A DNA stretch of 24,462 nucleotides from a virus. The position numbers were made by a program, and so were the translations under genes. Below are positions 1-23,532 of this stretch, in pieces; position 1 is the first letter of the stretch, and each line of letters begins with the position of its first letter. The DNA lies in IMG/VR virus record IMGVR_UViG_3300032299_000562, positions 1 through 24,462 of that record; one strand, 5' to 3'. The notes below the pieces were generated by a model. That model did not search any database. It was not told the DNA's origin and saw only the letters and a list, made by a program, of their open reading frames with translations.

Positions 1-726
1 GAGTCTACAGAGGCCATGACGCAGCTTCTATCGGGCAATCCGAACCTGTGGACGGTTATCGGTGACCTGTACGTGCGCGGTCAGAACTGGCCGAACGCGC
101 AAGCCATTGCAGACCGACTCGCCAAGACCGTTCCGCCGGAGATCAAGGGCGGCAACGACGAGGAAGCCGACCCCGAGGCCATGATGGGTCAGATGCAAGG
201 GGCAATGCAACAACTTGAGGGCGCATTGCAGGAGCGTGAGCAGGCGTTGCAGCAAGCGGCGCAGATTGTTCAGCAGCTTGAAGTACAATTGCAAGATGCG
301 CAAGTTAAGCAGCAGACCGAGGAAGCCCAAGTGATGGACAGGACGAACGCAGAGATCATCAAGGCCGAAACCGAGCGGTATAAGGCTGACGCAAGCATTG
401 AAATAGCCCGCATCCAGGCCGAAGTGGCGAAGGCTCAGGCTTTGCGTGAGCAGACCGGCGCGGATATTGAGACGGTCAAGAAGCTCATGGCAACGCTTGC
501 CGACCGGATGAACGTGGAAATGCCCGAGCTTGAGGAAGAAAACAAAGGCCCGGAACCCGAAGAAGTCATGCTTGCTCAGCTTTGGGAGCAGCAGCAAGGC
601 ATGCAAGACGCGATTGCGCAGCTTGCGACTGCGGTGCAAAGCAAGCCGCCAATTGCGGTGGACATTTTGCGCGGGCCGGATGGACGCGCACAACAATTCG
701 TGATGAGGCCTACAAATGTCGGTTAA
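1..726 (+). CDS. Portal protein, C-terminal part (P22 gp1-like), 5' truncated
   Basis: The frame is open from the left edge, so this is the 3' end of a longer gene; the Met at 16 is probably internal. The start of the fragment, with NPNLWTVIGDLY followed by a putative helix ending in IADRLAK, resembles the end of the core of P22-type portal proteins, which form the dodecameric DNA entry ring. From about residue 50 the protein is a long Gln/Glu/Ala-rich coiled coil, like the C-terminal barrel or tail of large podovirus portals. It is followed by a short beta-like end (ILRGPDGRAQQFVMRP). The order portal, scaffold, coat supports the call. The terminase genes expected upstream are outside the window. 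The gene overlaps the next by 11 bp. Fairly sure of portal; the family cannot be proved from the C-terminus alone. Confidence 0.8.
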   Translation, partial: ESTEAMTQLLSGNPNLWTVIGDLYVRGQNWPNAQAIADRLAKTVPPEIKGGNDEEADPEAMMGQMQGAMQQLEGALQEREQALQQAAQIVQQLEVQLQDAQVKQQTEEAQVMDRTNAEIIKAETERYKADASIEIARIQAEVAKAQALREQTGADIETVKKLMATLADRMNVEMPELEEENKGPEPEEVMLAQLWEQQQGMQDAIAQLATAVQSKPPIAVDILRGPDGRAQQFVMRPTNVG

Positions 727-1096
727 TTATCGAACTTCGCTAAAAACTACGCGTATGACGGCGGTGCGCGATGACATTGACAGCGGAACCGGCGCAGGAA
801 CGCTGGAAATCTGCACTGCGGCATATGCCTCGGTGCTGGCGACGTTTACCTGTAACGACCCTTGCGGCACGGTGAGCAGCGATGTTCTATCGTTTTCCGG
901 CCTGACCAAGACTGCGACCGCTGGCAACACCGGCACTGCTGCCATTGCGCGGTTCAAGAATTCTGCGGGCACGGACATTGTGACCGGCCTAACTGTTGGA
1001 ACTTCTGGTACCGATATCATCATCAGCCCGTCAACAACTATTACATCGGGGCAAACCGTCGAATGGACGGCTGGCACCATCACGCATAGCGCATGA
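716..1096 (+). CDS. Hypothetical phage structural protein, 126 aa
   Basis: Starts inside the end of the portal gene, with GAGG about 8 bases upstream of the ATG, so it is probably translationally coupled. The protein is rich in Thr, Ser, Gly and Ala, with alternating beta-strand-like segments and no charged helices. This suits a small beta-sandwich virion protein such as a decoration or head-fibre component. No catalytic motif is visible. It is the first of five genes inserted between portal and scaffold, where P22 has none, so it is probably an accessory virion component. The function is inference from position and composition; I do not recognise a named family. Confidence 0.7.
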   Translation: MSVNYRTSLKTTRMTAVRDDIDSGTGAGTLEICTAAYASVLATFTCNDPCGTVSSDVLSFSGLTKTATAGNTGTAAIARFKNSAGTDIVTGLTVGTSGTDIIISPSTTITSGQTVEWTAGTITHSA

Positions 1097-1266
1097 AAGC
1101 GGTTAACCAGTACGGCCGCCAATGGGGTGAGCTTGACGCCATGAGGGCAAATCTCACGATTGATGGCCCGCTTTATCTCGCCAGCAAAAATGGCGTGCCT
1201 CTGTGCGGTAGGCACGTTTCGGGTCACGAATCTGTCTACTTCACCGCAGTGAACTGGAAAGCGTAA
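1093..1266 (+). CDS. Small hypothetical protein, 57 aa
   Basis: The ATG overlaps the stop of the previous gene as ATGA, and the TAA lies one base before the next ATG, so the ORF fills the gap between its neighbours exactly. The product begins MKAVNQYGRQWGELDAMRAN and has mixed polar and aromatic residues, a His-rich middle (GRHVSGHES) and no membrane segment. It carries two cysteine/histidine positions (LCGRH) but not a full zinc motif. Reality rests on the coupling and the clean packing, not on a known family. Confidence 0.6.
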   Translation: MKAVNQYGRQWGELDAMRANLTIDGPLYLASKNGVPLCGRHVSGHESVYFTAVNWKA

Positions 1267-1267
1267 A

Positions 1268-1567
1268 ATGGCAACACTTGAACAGCTAGACGCCTTGATT
1301 GTCGGCAATCCGCTGCTGCGCCAGCGGTTTCGCGCCGCTCGCATCAAGGCAGCGTGGTACGTCGTCAACGAAAATGCGCAAACGGCCAACCACGCTGCGC
1401 GCTTGGCGTGGGCCAACAAGATCATCGGCAACTATGAAGCCGATCTTGACGTCGAGTATCGCTGGCTGTGCAGCAACGCGACCGTCCAAGCCAGCCCGGC
1501 CACCACGACCGACAACGACCTCGATTACGTTGTTGCGGTGTTCCTGAATCAGTGGGCGGGGGTCTAA
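1268..1567 (+). CDS. Hypothetical phage protein, 99 aa
   Basis: A GGAAAG sequence about 8 bases before the ATG can serve as ribosome binding site. The product is mostly alpha-helical by composition (Ala, Arg, Leu, Asn rich) with tryptophans at intervals and an acidic C-terminal third. It sits in the portal-to-scaffold insert, and its stop TAA is directly followed by the next ATG at 1568. Position suggests a virion or assembly role, but there is no recognisable domain. Confidence 0.65.
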   Translation: MATLEQLDALIVGNPLLRQRFRAARIKAAWYVVNENAQTANHAARLAWANKIIGNYEADLDVEYRWLCSNATVQASPATTTDNDLDYVVAVFLNQWAGV

Positions 1568-1987
1568 ATGGCAGTCGCAAAGTGGTCCACGCCGAGTACG
1601 CGCTCATCTAATCTCGCAAGCACGACGCTTAACTCGCTTGCCAACGGTGGGGCTTCTGCGTTTATCGGCTACGACAACAGCAGCAATCTGGACCTTTACG
1701 CATTAGTGACGGTCAAGCTTGGGTCGATTACTCCTGGCACGGCTGGTAGCATCTCCCTACGGGTCTATGCCGGCGACGGCACGGACCTGCCGGATATAAA
1801 CGGCGGCGAGTTTGACACCTATACGGCGCAGCTCTCCTCTGGCGCATCGGCAAAGGTCGTTATATTTAAAATGGCGCGGCTTTACCCAGTCCCCTGCCGC
1901 CTGCAGATTCTTAACAATTCTGGCGTGGCGCTCGCCGCAAGCTCAAATGAGCTATACGTCAGGCCGTTCAATGAAGATGTGAGCTAA
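1568..1987 (+). CDS. Hypothetical phage structural protein, 139 aa
   Basis: Begins immediately after the stop of the preceding gene with a GGGGG ribosome-binding-like run just upstream. The Ser/Thr/Gly/Leu-rich sequence with alternating hydrophobic strands (for example LYALVTVKLGSITPGTAGSI) looks like an all-beta domain, as in jelly-roll virion decoration proteins. It ends as TAATG shared with the next gene. It is probably a head or neck accessory protein; that role is inferred from context and fold-like composition only. Confidence 0.65.
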   Translation: MAVAKWSTPSTRSSNLASTTLNSLANGGASAFIGYDNSSNLDLYALVTVKLGSITPGTAGSISLRVYAGDGTDLPDINGGEFDTYTAQLSSGASAKVVIFKMARLYPVPCRLQILNNSGVALAASSNELYVRPFNEDVS

Positions 1988-2793
1988 TGCCTCGCGGAAC
2001 CAGTTTGTATGACGAGATGCGGTTACAGCGCCAGCTTGAGCCTGAAGCGCAGGATTACATCGAGCGCGTCGAACGTGCCGAAGGTCAGGCGACCGAAAGC
2101 GACGTTCGGATCGCCATCAATGATTTTGTGCGCGGCTGCAAGATCGACGGCACATGGAACGCGATCAAGTCGTCTTGCATCATGGCAGGCGCTCGTACCT
2201 TGACTGGTGCGCTGGTGCCGCTGGTGGGGACAGCCCCGACAAACTTTAACTTTGTCGGCGGCGACTATGACAGGAAGACAGGTTTGTTGGGTAATGGAAG
2301 CACGAAGTACCTGAATAGCAACCGACCTAGCAACGCAGATCCGCAGAACAGTAAACATTTGTCAGTATATGTTTCAACATCTCCAGCCAATAGCACAAAT
2401 CAATACGTAATAGGGGGCGGGAGTGGACTTTCTTTCGATGACATTGGATATTTATTTATACAGGGAAACACGGGAATTACAACATATTCTAGGTCGGTTG
2501 GAGGCGACAGGGTTGCAAATTCAACCTCAATAACTGGCTTGCTAGGCATCTCGCGCGCTTCCTCTGCTCAATACAGCGCCATAATTGAAAAAATAAGTAC
2601 ACCTTATTCAAGAGCTTCGGCAACTCCGGGAAGCACTCCCTTAACTGTATTCGCTGACAACACTGGCGGTAATGTCTCGTTTTATTCAAACTGTCGCCTA
2701 GCCTTCTACTCCATGGGCGAAGCCCTAGACCTCGCTCTGCTTGACAACCGAGTAAGCGAATTGATGGGCCGCATAAAAACCGCGGCCGCGTGA
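1987..2793 (+). CDS. Phage virion-associated protein with lectin-like (LamG-type) beta domain, 268 aa
   Basis: The ATG overlaps the previous stop (TAATG). Residues 1-45 are helical and charged. From about residue 46 a conserved phage motif appears: FVRGCKIDGTWNAIKSSC, then ARTLTGALVPLVGTAP and NFVGGDYDRKTGLLGNGST. I recognise this from a family of phage-encoded adhesin-like proteins with a concanavalin/LamG-like C-terminal domain. The remainder, to about residue 240, is Ser/Asn/Gly-rich and beta-like, and a short helix (LLDNRVSELMGRI) closes the protein. Base composition from about 2340 to 2660 is more AT-rich than the flanks, a hint of separate acquisition. The likely role is a capsid- or tail-bound glycan-binding appendage; this is inference. 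Confidence 0.65.
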   Translation: MPRGTSLYDEMRLQRQLEPEAQDYIERVERAEGQATESDVRIAINDFVRGCKIDGTWNAIKSSCIMAGARTLTGALVPLVGTAPTNFNFVGGDYDRKTGLLGNGSTKYLNSNRPSNADPQNSKHLSVYVSTSPANSTNQYVIGGGSGLSFDDIGYLFIQGNTGITTYSRSVGGDRVANSTSITGLLGISRASSAQYSAIIEKISTPYSRASATPGSTPLTVFADNTGGNVSFYSNCRLAFYSMGEALDLALLDNRVSELMGRIKTAAA

Positions 2794-2837
2794 CATGCGC
2801 GCCGCCCGCAACCGCCCGCCGCTGATCGGAGACTGAC

Positions 2838-3578
2838 ATGCTGCGCGTCAGAATCCCGCGCATTGGCGTCCAGGCGGTCAGTACCGTATCTCTTGGCGCC
2901 ACGGAGAGCCCAGACACAGCCAGCTTTTCTGTTGGGCTAAGGCAAGCAGTCGCGCTGGCCGCTACAGAGGCGCCAGACGTTGCCGCGGTTAGTGTTGCGA
3001 CAAGAATTGGGATATCTCTTAGCGCAACAGAAGCATCGGACGTTGCCGACTTTACGGTTGCATTGCGTGTCGGCGTAACTCTCGGAGCAACCGAAGGGCC
3101 TGACATTGCCGCGTTTGCTGTTGGCGTTGTCAGCGCAGCGCCAGCGATAAACCTCACGGCCACTGAGGGCGCGGACGTTGCCGACTTTTCCGTAGCTGGC
3201 CCAGACATCGAGCAGACTGGGGGAGGTGCTGGTGACTACTTCACCAACGTCCCGAACTTTGCCCGCCGATGGGTAGATATCCGCGACGAGTTGGAGGAAA
3301 AGCCAACTCCTGAAGTTGTGCGTGAAGCGGCGCGGTCAATCGTCCAAGCGAAGCCGGACATTGAGCCCGCCGCCCTTCAGTCTCTGATTGACGAGCAACT
3401 GCGGGCGTATGATCTTCTTTCGTCGCTTGTTGTCATTGCGCAAGAAGAGGCGCGACGAGAGCTAGATCGGCTGCAAATAATTAAGCAGGAAGAGGAAGAA
3501 ATTCAGCAGGCTATTAAGATGTTTGCAGCTTACATGCAATCAGGCGATAAATCGCCACAGTTCAATATAGTTTTATAG
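2838..3578 (+). CDS. Phage protein with five 21-residue ATE-x-PD repeats, 246 aa
   Basis: A GGAG lies 7 bases or so before the ATG. After a basic N-terminus, residues 19-119 contain five tandem copies of a motif with core ATE(S/A/G)(P/S/A)D followed by (T/V/I)A and an aromatic. The cores start at residues 21, 42, 63, 84 and 108. Residues 130-246 are different: a Gly-rich hinge, then helices and a charged coiled coil (EEARRELDRLQIIKQEEEEI). This combination suggests an extended beta-repeat shaft joined to a helical base, as in a virion fibre or decoration protein. I know such ATE-PD repeats only from phage structural proteins of unknown role. The function is unproven. Confidence 0.65.
   Translation: MLRVRIPRIGVQAVSTVSLGATESPDTASFSVGLRQAVALAATEAPDVAAVSVATRIGISLSATEASDVADFTVALRVGVTLGATEGPDIAAFAVGVVSAAPAINLTATEGADVADFSVAGPDIEQTGGGAGDYFTNVPNFARRWVDIRDELEEKPTPEVVREAARSIVQAKPDIEPAALQSLIDEQLRAYDLLSSLVVIAQEEARRELDRLQIIKQEEEEIQQAIKMFAAYMQSGDKSPQFNIVL
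2892..3194 (+). repeat. Five degenerate 63-bp coding repeats
   Basis: The region codes for the five ATE-x-PD units of the 2838-3578 protein. Spacing is 21, 21, 21 and then 24 codons. The DNA copies differ at many synonymous positions (GCCACGGAG, GCTACAGAG, GCAACAGAA, GCAACCGAA, GCCACTGAG for the Ala-Thr-Glu core), while the protein motif is kept. This indicates old duplication with selection on the protein rather than recent slippage. Confidence 0.75.
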
Positions 3579-3580
3579 TA

Positions 3581-3609
3581 CTTTCTGGCATCTCATTAAT
3601 GCCAGAAGG
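3581..3609 (+). promoter_or_regulatory. RNA hairpin covering the ribosome binding site of the scaffold gene
   Basis: A perfect 9-bp inverted repeat, TTCTGGCAT (3583-3591) and ATGCCAGAA (3599-3607), has a 7-base loop. A G-U and a C-G pair extend it to 11 bp (3581 with 3609). The right arm contains the AGAAGG Shine-Dalgarno at 3604-3609 that serves the ATG at 3614, so the folded form would block translation. No U-tract follows, so it is not an intrinsic terminator. P22 scaffolding protein is known to repress its own synthesis after transcription, and this stem is a plausible site for such control; the link is inference. Confidence 0.55.
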
Positions 3610-3613
3610 CAAG

Positions 3614-4447
3614 ATGACGAACGAAAACAGCGCGCCCTCGCAGGGGAATGAAGCGGAGTCGCTACCCGCAACTGAAGCCGAACAGGTTAAAACGGCAGGC
3701 CAAGAGCAGGCCAGCGAAGAACATCAAAACGAAGAGCAGGGCGTCGATGACGCAGAGCCGCGTGACGATGGGAAGCGCAAGCGTGGTGGATTAGGCGAAC
3801 GTGCGCTGGAGTATCGGAATCAAGCCCGAGACTTGGCACGCGTCAATGAGCGGCTTCTAAACCTAATGGAGCGAACCCTAGCGGGCGATGCTCCGAAGGT
3901 GGAAAAGCCATCAGGCCCGCCGCAGCGTGAGAACTTCGACAGCTACGAGACCTACTTGGAGGCGAAAGCCGACTATCAGGTGGCCGCGAAGCTGCAAGAA
4001 GTTGAAGCGCGAGCGGAACGGGCACGCCAAGAGGCATCGATTCGTGAGCGTGAGGAGTCGTGGATCAACCGGCAGAAACAAGCCGCGAAGAAATACGACG
4101 ACTTTGCCGAAGTAACCATGTCGGACGATCTAACGATCACTCCGATCATGGCTGAAGCAATCAAGGATTCCGATATGGGGCCTGACGTTGCTTATTACCT
4201 CGGCAAGAACCCTGACCTTGCGGAAAAGATCGCCCGTATGAACCCAGCAGCTCAAGTGCGTGAACTCGGGAAAATCGAGGCACGTTTAGAAGTGAATAAA
4301 GAGCCTATTAAGCGCGCCAGCAAAGCGCCCGCACCGATTGAGCCTATTGGCGGTGGCAAGGCATCCTCGGATGAACTTGGCACGATGTCGCAGTCTCAAT
4401 ACGAAGCGATGCGCAAGAAACAGGGCGCTTGGTGGGCAGGACGTTAA
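3614..4447 (+). CDS. Scaffold protein (P22 gp8-like position), 277 aa
   Basis: Lies directly before the coat gene, as scaffolds do. The product is very charged. Residues 1-60 are Glu/Gln/Asn-rich and disordered, followed by a basic patch (KRKRGGLGERALEYRNQARD), long helices with coiled-coil character and a short basic end. No catalytic motif is seen. P22 scaffold is also highly helical, about 300 residues long, and acts as an internal chaperone that leaves the procapsid. I chose the ATG at 3614 because AGAAGG precedes it. An in-frame ATG at 3599 would add five residues but has no ribosome binding site. The upstream hairpin (3581-3609) may control translation. Confidence 0.75.
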   Translation: MTNENSAPSQGNEAESLPATEAEQVKTAGQEQASEEHQNEEQGVDDAEPRDDGKRKRGGLGERALEYRNQARDLARVNERLLNLMERTLAGDAPKVEKPSGPPQRENFDSYETYLEAKADYQVAAKLQEVEARAERARQEASIREREESWINRQKQAAKKYDDFAEVTMSDDLTITPIMAEAIKDSDMGPDVAYYLGKNPDLAEKIARMNPAAQVRELGKIEARLEVNKEPIKRASKAPAPIEPIGGGKASSDELGTMSQSQYEAMRKKQGAWWAGR

Positions 4448-4470
4448 ACCATACCCTGCGGGAATAAATC

Positions 4471-5694
4471 ATGTCGAATACCCTTGCCACTACCTCACTG
4501 GTTGCCAAAGAGTGCCTGGCGATCCTGAAGAACATGCTTACCTTTTCCAAGGGCGTCAACCGCTCGTGGCAAAGCGAGTACGGCTCCAACATGGCCCGTG
4601 GTTATGCCACTGGCCAGACCATCAACATCAAGCGCCCGCCCCGGTATACGTACCGTTCGGGCCGCGTTGCCTCGCCGCAAGCGACCGTTTTCAACACGGT
4701 GCCGCTGACGCTGAGTCAGGGCGGCTGCGACATCAACTTTCCGTTGATCGAGCGTACGGTTAGCATCAGCAACCCCGAATTGCAAAAGGCGCTGCAAGCC
4801 GCTGTGGCCACCGTGGCGAACGAAATCGACCGCCAAGGTCTGGCGCTGGCGCGCACCGCCGTTGCCAATCAGGTCTCGGTCAACACGACCACGATGGTTC
4901 AGCCTGCGACGCAAGCGGAAGCGCTGGCACTTGCCACGCAAGCCGGTCGGATTCTGGATGACCACGCCGCCCCGCGTGACGGCCGCCGCAATCTGGTGCT
5001 GTCCTCGGGTCTTAATGCTTCGATGGTGCAAGGTCTTGCGGGTCTGTTCAACAACGCCTCGACCATCGGCAAGCAGTACGGTGTTGGCATGATGGTGGAT
5101 TCGCTGGGCTTCAACGTCGGGATGGATCAGAACGTGGCCCGCCAGACGAATGGTGCTGCGACTGCGACGAACATCAACGGCGCATCGCAGACTGGTTCCA
5201 CTATGACTGTGGCGGCGATCACTGGTGGCACTCTGGCTGCTGGCACTGTCATTACCCTACCGGGAGTGTTTGATGTCAACCCGCAGACCCGAGCTTCTAC
5301 CGGCCGACTGAAGCTGTTTGTGGTCACTGCCGATGCGCTGCTGAGTGCGACCTCCATCGCGATTAGCCCAGCCGTTACCCCGACCGGCGCTTTCCAGAAC
5401 TGCAGCGCCTCGCCCACTAACGGCTCGCCGTATGTGATTGTCGGCAACGCCTCGGTGAGCTACGATACCTCGGTCGCTTTCCATGAGGATGCATTTACGC
5501 TGGCGATGGTGCCGATGTTTGTGCCGCAAGACCAGAACGCCAAGGTCTCGCAAGAGTCGGATCAGGGCTTTACGGTCAAGGTGACTGAGTACTACGACGG
5601 TGCCAACGACGTGTCGAACATGCGTCTAGACGTGCTGTTCGGTTGGGCCGCGACCTACCCCGAGCTGGCCTGCCGGATTGGTACTACGGGCTAA
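4471..5694 (+). CDS. Major capsid protein, P22 coat (gp5) family, 407 aa
   Basis: The product forms the icosahedral shell. The N-terminus (MSNTLATTSLVAKECLAILK), the segment around QTINIKRPPRY and the C-terminal part (FTLAMVPMFVPQ, then QGFTVKVTEYYDG) match the P22-type coat pattern, and the length is close to P22 gp5 (430). Residues from about 225 to 335 (Thr/Ala/Gly-rich, with ITLPGVFDVNPQT and a GSPYVIVG ending) correspond to the extra I-domain inserted in the HK97 fold of P22-like coats. A GGGA sequence precedes the ATG. The gene lies between the scaffold and a strong terminator, which fits high expression. Confidence 0.92.
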   Translation: MSNTLATTSLVAKECLAILKNMLTFSKGVNRSWQSEYGSNMARGYATGQTINIKRPPRYTYRSGRVASPQATVFNTVPLTLSQGGCDINFPLIERTVSISNPELQKALQAAVATVANEIDRQGLALARTAVANQVSVNTTTMVQPATQAEALALATQAGRILDDHAAPRDGRRNLVLSSGLNASMVQGLAGLFNNASTIGKQYGVGMMVDSLGFNVGMDQNVARQTNGAATATNINGASQTGSTMTVAAITGGTLAAGTVITLPGVFDVNPQTRASTGRLKLFVVTADALLSATSIAISPAVTPTGAFQNCSASPTNGSPYVIVGNASVSYDTSVAFHEDAFTLAMVPMFVPQDQNAKVSQESDQGFTVKVTEYYDGANDVSNMRLDVLFGWAATYPELACRIGTTG

Positions 5695-19272: not shown

Positions 19273-19575
19273 TCAAAGACTGCGACGATTCCGTGTATTA
19301 ACTGTGCCGTAGCCATTGCCGTAGCCATAGCCATAGCCATTGCCGTTGCCATAGCCGTAGCCATAGCCATCGCCATAGCCGCCGCCATAGCCGCCGCCAT
19401 AGCCGTTGCCACCGCCATTACCATAGCCATTGCCGTAGCCATAGCCATTGCCATCGCCATAGCCATAGCCATAGCCATCGCCATTGCCACCGCCATTGCC
19501 ATTGCCTTTGCCATAGCCATAGCCATAGCCATCGCCATAGCCGTAGCCGTTGCCGTAGCCGATTGGCCTAAACAT
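19273..19575 (-). CDS. Low-complexity Gly-Tyr/Asn repeat protein, 100 aa
   Basis: Starts MFRPI in TGATG overlap with the upstream gene. It then has 42 Gly-X dipeptides (residues 6-90), where X is Tyr 22 times, Asn 11, Asp 4, Gly 4 and Lys once. It ends TVNTRNRRSL. Translation coupling on the upstream side and GGAGG of the next gene 2 bases after its stop support a true gene. No fold is expected; such Gly-Tyr-rich chains are flexible and may self-associate. I recall similar GYG-rich phage proteins without known role. Two of the other frames are also free of stops across the repeat, so frame choice rests on the coupled start. Confidence 0.6.
   Translation of the reverse strand: MFRPIGYGNGYGYGDGYGYGYGKGNGNGGGNGDGYGYGYGDGNGYGYGNGYGNGGGNGYGGGYGGGYGDGYGYGYGNGNGYGYGYGNGYGTVNTRNRRSL
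19306..19560 (-). repeat. Hexanucleotide-based repeat array (about 255 bp)
   Basis: Made of units GGC-NNN on the leftward strand: GGCTAT, GGCTAC, GGCAAT, GGCAAC, GGCGAT, GGCGGC and GGTGGC. Forty-two units follow one another with no stop in any leftward frame. Changes by slippage of six bases would keep all frames, so length can vary without breaking the protein. Longer blocks (for example Tyr-Tyr-Tyr sets) suggest secondary duplication. Confidence 0.85.
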
Positions 19576-23257: not shown

Positions 23258-23532
23258 TCGCAATCCCTTTCAAACTGACGGCGCAATTCTTCGATTCGGC
23301 AGTGGTGCGCCTTGACGGCCGCAGATGCAACCTCCGCGCACCTAGCCAACTCGTGATAGTTAGACGATGCCTCGGCTGTTGCTCTAGACCATTCGGCCGC
23401 AGCTTCGCGGATCACCGAATCAGGCGCTCTGGCTAAAAGCCTGATTCGGTGAAGATGCTCGGCAGCGTCTTGAATGCTGCGAGCCTCAACGTAGGCGGTT
23501 GCGGCCTCTGTAAGCGCAATAAAGTGATTCAC
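23254..23532 (-). CDS. Hypothetical helical early protein, 92 aa
   Basis: Starts with GTG at 23532, which overlaps the upstream stop (GTGA) and has GGAGG 5 bases before it. Almost wholly helical, Ala/Glu/Arg/His-rich (SIQDAAEHLHRIRLLARAPD, then EASSNYHELARCAEVASAAV). No membrane segment or motif. Second gene of the leftward operon. Not recognised. Confidence 0.65.
   Translation of the reverse strand: MNHFIALTEAATAYVEARSIQDAAEHLHRIRLLARAPDSVIREAAAEWSRATAEASSNYHELARCAEVASAAVKAHHCRIEELRRQFERDCE

Follow-up and report, generated by a model that had tools for sequence, protein, structure and literature searches.

Control of the P22 scaffolding protein acts after transcription. Autoregulation of the P22 scaffolding gene has been reported (Wyckoff and Casjens, 1985, cited as reference 45 in PMC5744158). 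The DNA analyzed here, an IMG/VR virus record of 24,462 bases (referred to below as the window), is like P22 in that a scaffold gene stands before a coat gene of the P22-like family, but the two have no RNA feature in common. In the P22 record that we fetched, the gene 8 leader is 13 nt long, unstructured and open, with a predicted opening cost of 4.1 kcal/mol, and thus no leader structure is shared between P22 gene 8 and the window. A reading made from the window's letters alone (the sequence-only reading) had invoked P22 autoregulation for a hairpin at the start of the scaffold gene; because the gene 8 leader is open, that parallel does not yield a common RNA target.

Closer in layout are the hairpins at the replicase and lysis starts of MS2, which sequester a Shine-Dalgarno (SD) sequence and are opened by translational coupling. 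The window hairpin falls among SD-sequestering hairpins in that the SD of the downstream gene, AGAAGG, lies inside the stem, in its 3' arm. Like the MS2 hairpins, it is a local stem that covers the SD ahead of a start codon and has the end of the preceding frame close by; unlike them, it belongs to the late head operon of a DNA phage, its regulation is putative, and the perfect stem is not conserved. In Rfam, the region from 3300 to 3800 gave just one match of 17.3 bits against a cut-off of 57, and no Rfam family was matched in 14 relatives.

The window has a P22-like head gene order, consisting of the end of the portal gene, five small genes, the scaffold gene, the coat gene, and tail-adaptor and head-closure genes. 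The scaffold gene (3614–4447, plus strand, 277 aa) matches the PHROG 8865 head scaffolding protein (E 1.1e-44), and the P22-like coat gene (4471–5694, plus strand) matches Pfam PF11651 (E 5.8e-27). The five genes between portal and scaffold occupy 716–3578, where P22 has none; one of them matches a virion structural PHROG and another PHROG 17104. The last of the upstream genes (2838–3578, plus strand, with the stop codon TAG at 3576–3578) encodes a 246-aa product without a family match, which contains about four repeats of a unit of ~27 aa (LxATExxDxAxFxV). Elsewhere in the window, a 6-base unit, GCCATA, is repeated in 42.5 copies at 19306–19560 and is read from the minus strand as Met-Ala repeats, and a perfect inverted repeat (14-bp arms, 13-nt spacer) at 23412–23452 forms the strongest local hairpin.

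The hairpin ahead of the scaffold gene lies on the plus strand at 3581–3609. As judged from sequence and fold, its 5' arm is CUUUCUGGCAU (3581–3591), its loop CUCAUUA (3592–3598) and its 3' arm AUGCCAGAAGG (3599–3609), so that the 11-bp stem, one pair of which is U-G, and the 7-base loop were described correctly in the sequence-only reading. The same is true of its placement of the SD and of an ATG within the stem: AGAAGG at 3604–3609, recognized from the sequence 4 nt before ATG3614, is predicted to be almost fully hidden (probability of being unpaired, 0.01), and the in-frame ATG3599 lies in the 3' arm. We rejected ATG3599 as the scaffold start; it is improbable because no SD precedes it and because three relatives (L002, L003, and L010) have an in-frame TAG after this ATG, the sequence at window position 3599 being ATG CCG TAG in L002 and L003. 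The 46-nt leader of the window folds at -15.4 kcal/mol (z -3.9), an energy reached by 0 of 200 shuffles. Two other readings of the hairpin were also rejected: nothing terminator-like is present at it and nearby promoter matches reach just 9 of 12 positions, and the stem occurs only once in the window, which argues against a repeat or mobile element.

How exceptional the hairpin is depends on what is counted. It is the only plus-strand hairpin of the window with at least 11 bp, at most one G-U pair and a loop of 3–10 bases; shuffled windows contain 0.48 such hairpins on average, with at least one in 42% of shuffles, and its raw energy ranks only about 330th among 12,211 forty-base windows. One stem of this quality per window is therefore unremarkable by chance. 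By comparison, the cost of opening the scaffold initiation region, 15.4 kcal/mol, is the second highest among the 21 gene starts of the window and exceeds those of all 68 scaffold leaders of relatives (mean 8.4, sd 2.7) once miscalled starts, judged to be those of L022, L117, and L147, are left out. What is unusual is the placement of the stem on an SD, not its existence.

Close relatives were found through the coat and scaffold proteins, and their clade comprises five distinct leaders, namely those of the window, L004, L005 (identical to L006 and L007), L002, and L003 (identical to L010). A search of genome contigs with the coat of the window found no relative, while one with the relatives' coat found two; a plasmid search gave no match. 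The perfect stem is present in the window alone among the five leaders. In the other four, the 5' arm is longer by a C (CUUUC[A/G]GCGCAU, or CCUUCGGCGCAU in L003/L010), and in L002 and L003 the SD itself is changed to GUAGG. L005 retains 11 bp around the bulge, with one double change from U-A to G-U. Counted over the alignment of the five leaders, the stem has a single double-changed pair, a level of covariation no higher than that of shuffles (338/500). L004 is the nearest relative; its scaffold protein is 100% identical to that of the window over 277 aa and the locus is otherwise almost identical, but it has neither the perfect stem nor the nearby upstream stop. Its 3' arm is the same as in the window, so the pairing was lost one-sidedly, through an A.A mismatch and the extra C in the 5' arm. 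In full context, its 47-nt leader folds otherwise, at -10.3 kcal/mol compared to -15.4 kcal/mol for the window, with the AUG rather than the SD paired. Relative to L004, identity over 4450–5350 falls from ~98% in the scaffold gene to about 85–90% in the coat gene, which suggests recombination near the scaffold/coat boundary.

Pairing of the SD as such is more widespread than the perfect stem. When only the RNA before the start codon is folded, mimicking ongoing transcription, the SD is predicted to be paired in 5/5 clade leaders (P 0.86–0.99), by differing pairings; in L002, for instance, a shifted register, GUCUAC/GUAGGC, is used. Since random mutation of a leader (2–5 changes) retains P>0.9 in 36–67% of trials, the persistence of SD pairing in the five relatives is weak evidence for selection. 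Judged from these alignments and predicted folds, the window stem is a private, strengthened form of an SD pairing loosely kept in the clade, not a conserved operator. A target of scaffold control at this stem had been one possibility raised in the sequence-only reading, which had also set one-sided loss of pairing in relatives as its own refuting test; such a loss is what L004 displays.

Other features around the stem vary in how well they are kept. A small hairpin, GGCGA-UAAA-UCGCC (3543–3556, plus strand), is kept with 4–5 bp in the five close relatives. In the first 30 scaffold codons, 14/14 fourfold sites agree across the two clade halves; because fourfold identity is 75–82% over the whole gene, this is just a hint of synonymous constraint. 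The nearby end of the upstream gene, TAG at 3576–3578 close to the stem starting at 3581, is a property of the window and is not found in its relatives: their TAA/TAG stop corresponds to TCA at window positions 3540–3542 (4069–4071 in L004), so that the frame of the window runs past it and its product is 12 residues longer than that of L004 through stop loss. Thus, the proximity of gene end and stem pointed out in the sequence-only reading is real in the window but private to it, the relatives' stop lying ~36 nt further upstream. As the window stop ends 2 bases before the stem, a terminating ribosome, given the size of its footprint, would overlap the 5' arm.

A competing structure can form at 3593–3617 on the plus strand, in which UCAUU of the loop (3593–3597) pairs with GAUGA (3613–3617, matching RAUGA at the start codon) and UGCC (3600–3603) pairs with GGCA (3608–3611). 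Here AUG3614 is base-paired, and AGAA lies in the loop. Folding the five full leaders together gives this structure as the consensus, with 100% of cells paired, and of the four variable columns that it covers, three are unpaired and the fourth keeps its pair (U-A/U-G). Because nearly all of its pairs are invariant, the comparison neither supports nor excludes it.

We tentatively favor, at a probability of about 0.4, the explanation that the stem hides the ribosome site and lowers scaffold initiation, thereby tuning scaffold relative to coat. The hairpin on the SD would lower initiation at ATG3614, the lowered initiation would set the amount of scaffold protein relative to coat, and ribosomes finishing the upstream gene at 3576–3578 would probably open the stem by translational coupling, rather than heat or the scaffold protein itself doing so. 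The unusually closed state of the initiation region, both among the window's own genes and among the scaffold leaders of relatives, argues for such a damping role, as do the predicted SD pairing in all five clade leaders and the covarying SD hairpin of other P22-like phages (described below), and the private nature of both the perfect stem and the near upstream stop argues against it. Chance drift is only slightly less probable: a weak pairing could have been perfected by a single deletion plus a single substitution in the non-coding 5' arm, leaving a conserved initiation region with a local chance variant of no regulatory role. Both changes are one-sided and confined to the window, the covariation of the clade stays within that of shuffles, and the frequency of equally good stems in shuffled windows (42%) fits the same picture. 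Moreover, L001, which is 99.9% identical to the window, starts at 3588, the first base where both arm types agree, suggesting an assembly branch at this point, such as the presence of both types in one sample would produce, and hence a 5' arm that may be polymorphic. Against drift, the stem sits on the SD of a gene that has a structured leader in many relatives, and identity to the distant half of the clade is 83–89% over the block 3579–3613, compared with 58–61% over the 33 bases that precede it.

A choice between the SD stem and the AUG3614-pairing hairpin, made by the order of transcription or by a ligand, is unlikely. That the five leaders have the alternative as their consensus, and that L004 is predicted to hide its AUG and the window its SD, would be consistent with two states; on the other hand, almost all pairs of the alternative are invariant and hence uninformative, leaders whose minimum-energy fold is the alternative or close to it have unremarkable energies (z -0.2 to -1.8), and for the window the SD stem is clearly the preferred fold. 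We consider it slightly less probable still that unassembled scaffold protein represses its own translation by binding the hairpin, by analogy with P22. The recurrence of structured scaffold leaders in the coat family would fit such an operator, as would the autoregulation reported for P22 (Wyckoff and Casjens, 1985, as cited in PMC5744158), but P22 lacks such a hairpin in its open leader, and L004 does not conserve the stem despite having the identical scaffold protein. A stem over the SD is also the usual layout of a thermosensor, in which warming melts the stem and frees the SD. That suggestion of the sequence-only reading is very improbable here, as the predicted exposure of the SD stays flat at 0.00–0.01 from 20 to 42 C.

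Beyond the clade, we found a different arrangement of RNA structure at the same place. In 16 scaffold leaders of the P22-like coat family, three hairpins run in tandem up to the scaffold start codon. The first, H0, has a stem such as CCGGC-GCGCA-GCCGG; the second, H1, varies in sequence; and the third, H2 (UCCUU..AAGGA), includes the SD within its 3' arm. A covariance model (R1) was built from 12 leaders, and in the first 91 loci it gave 14 matches, all at scaffold starts. Further matches outside the training set, all ending at a scaffold ATG, are those in L257 (E 3.9e-20), L253 (E 1.4e-11), and L189 (E 3.4e-7), the former two having been fetched by the DNA pattern of H0 and not by coat. The members are L153 (4059–4124), L172 (4064–4130), L138 (4105–4171), L257 (6358–6424, minus strand), L253 (6869–6936), and L189 (2446–2529), and ten others. 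The leader is single-copy in 6/6 records and matches no Rfam family. H0 often takes the form of a GCGNA pentaloop on a 5-bp stem, which is boxB-like in resemblance only.

Compensatory changes, proposed in the sequence-only reading as a check on the window stem, are at the level of shuffles there, as noted above, and are found instead in these wider-family leaders. Across the 16 members, double changes occur at 11/15 pairs in an alignment fitted to the model and with relatedness ignored; the double-changed cells number 31, whereas shuffles give 8.9 and slid versions no more than 9, again ignoring relatedness. For the SD hairpin H2, 3/5 pairs have double changes among the 16 members (relatedness ignored). 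H0 is conserved in loci where it overlaps the last codons of the portal gene (L153, L257), and also in those with an upstream stop well ahead of it (L120, L123, L118, L135). In L153, L172, L173, and L257 the portal stop codon falls in the H1 loop, so terminating ribosomes would sit on H1. In several relatives (L148, L016, L167, L130, and L175), a GC-rich hairpin followed by a T run, resembling an intrinsic terminator, lies directly before the scaffold gene.

The window leader resembles the three-hairpin leader in lying directly before the scaffold ATG with the SD in its last hairpin, but H0 and H1 are absent from the window. The best R1 match in 601 bases of the window (4.4 bits, E 0.54) falls away from the leader, the search of the first set of loci gave no match to the window up to E 1, and homology between the two leaders was therefore rejected. 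R1 matches are likewise absent from P22, Rhodoferax phage P26218, and EBPR podovirus 1. In the coat tree, the three-hairpin members are scattered among non-members, and the window clade forms one group. Over 54 distinct scaffold leaders, predicted pairing of the SD with upstream sequence is 0.54, compared to 0.45 for 362 other starts in the same loci (p 0.01, relatedness ignored), and the ten highest of the 54 consist of four from the window clade and six three-hairpin leaders. Given that the three-hairpin leaders hold the SD in their last hairpin, SD-hiding structure recurs at scaffold starts.

Proper procapsid formation depends on the ratio of scaffold to coat protein. Taken alone, the stem of the window would be one more SD-hiding hairpin. 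The covariation in the three-hairpin leader lends support to RNA-structure control of scaffold translation in the family, and such control of scaffold production is worth testing because relatives carry supported hairpins at the same place. A broader and rather doubtful possibility is that many environmental P22-like podoviruses place their scaffold genes under a structured RNA leader, taking the form of the three-hairpin element in some phages and of a lone SD hairpin in the clade of the window, which would sense free scaffold or coat protein, or translation of the portal gene, and so balance head assembly. If true, this would give the autoregulation of P22 a testable RNA counterpart. A covarying RNA that is found at the scaffold start in one copy per phage record and has no counterpart in Rfam provides concrete RNAs with which the question of translational control may be addressed.
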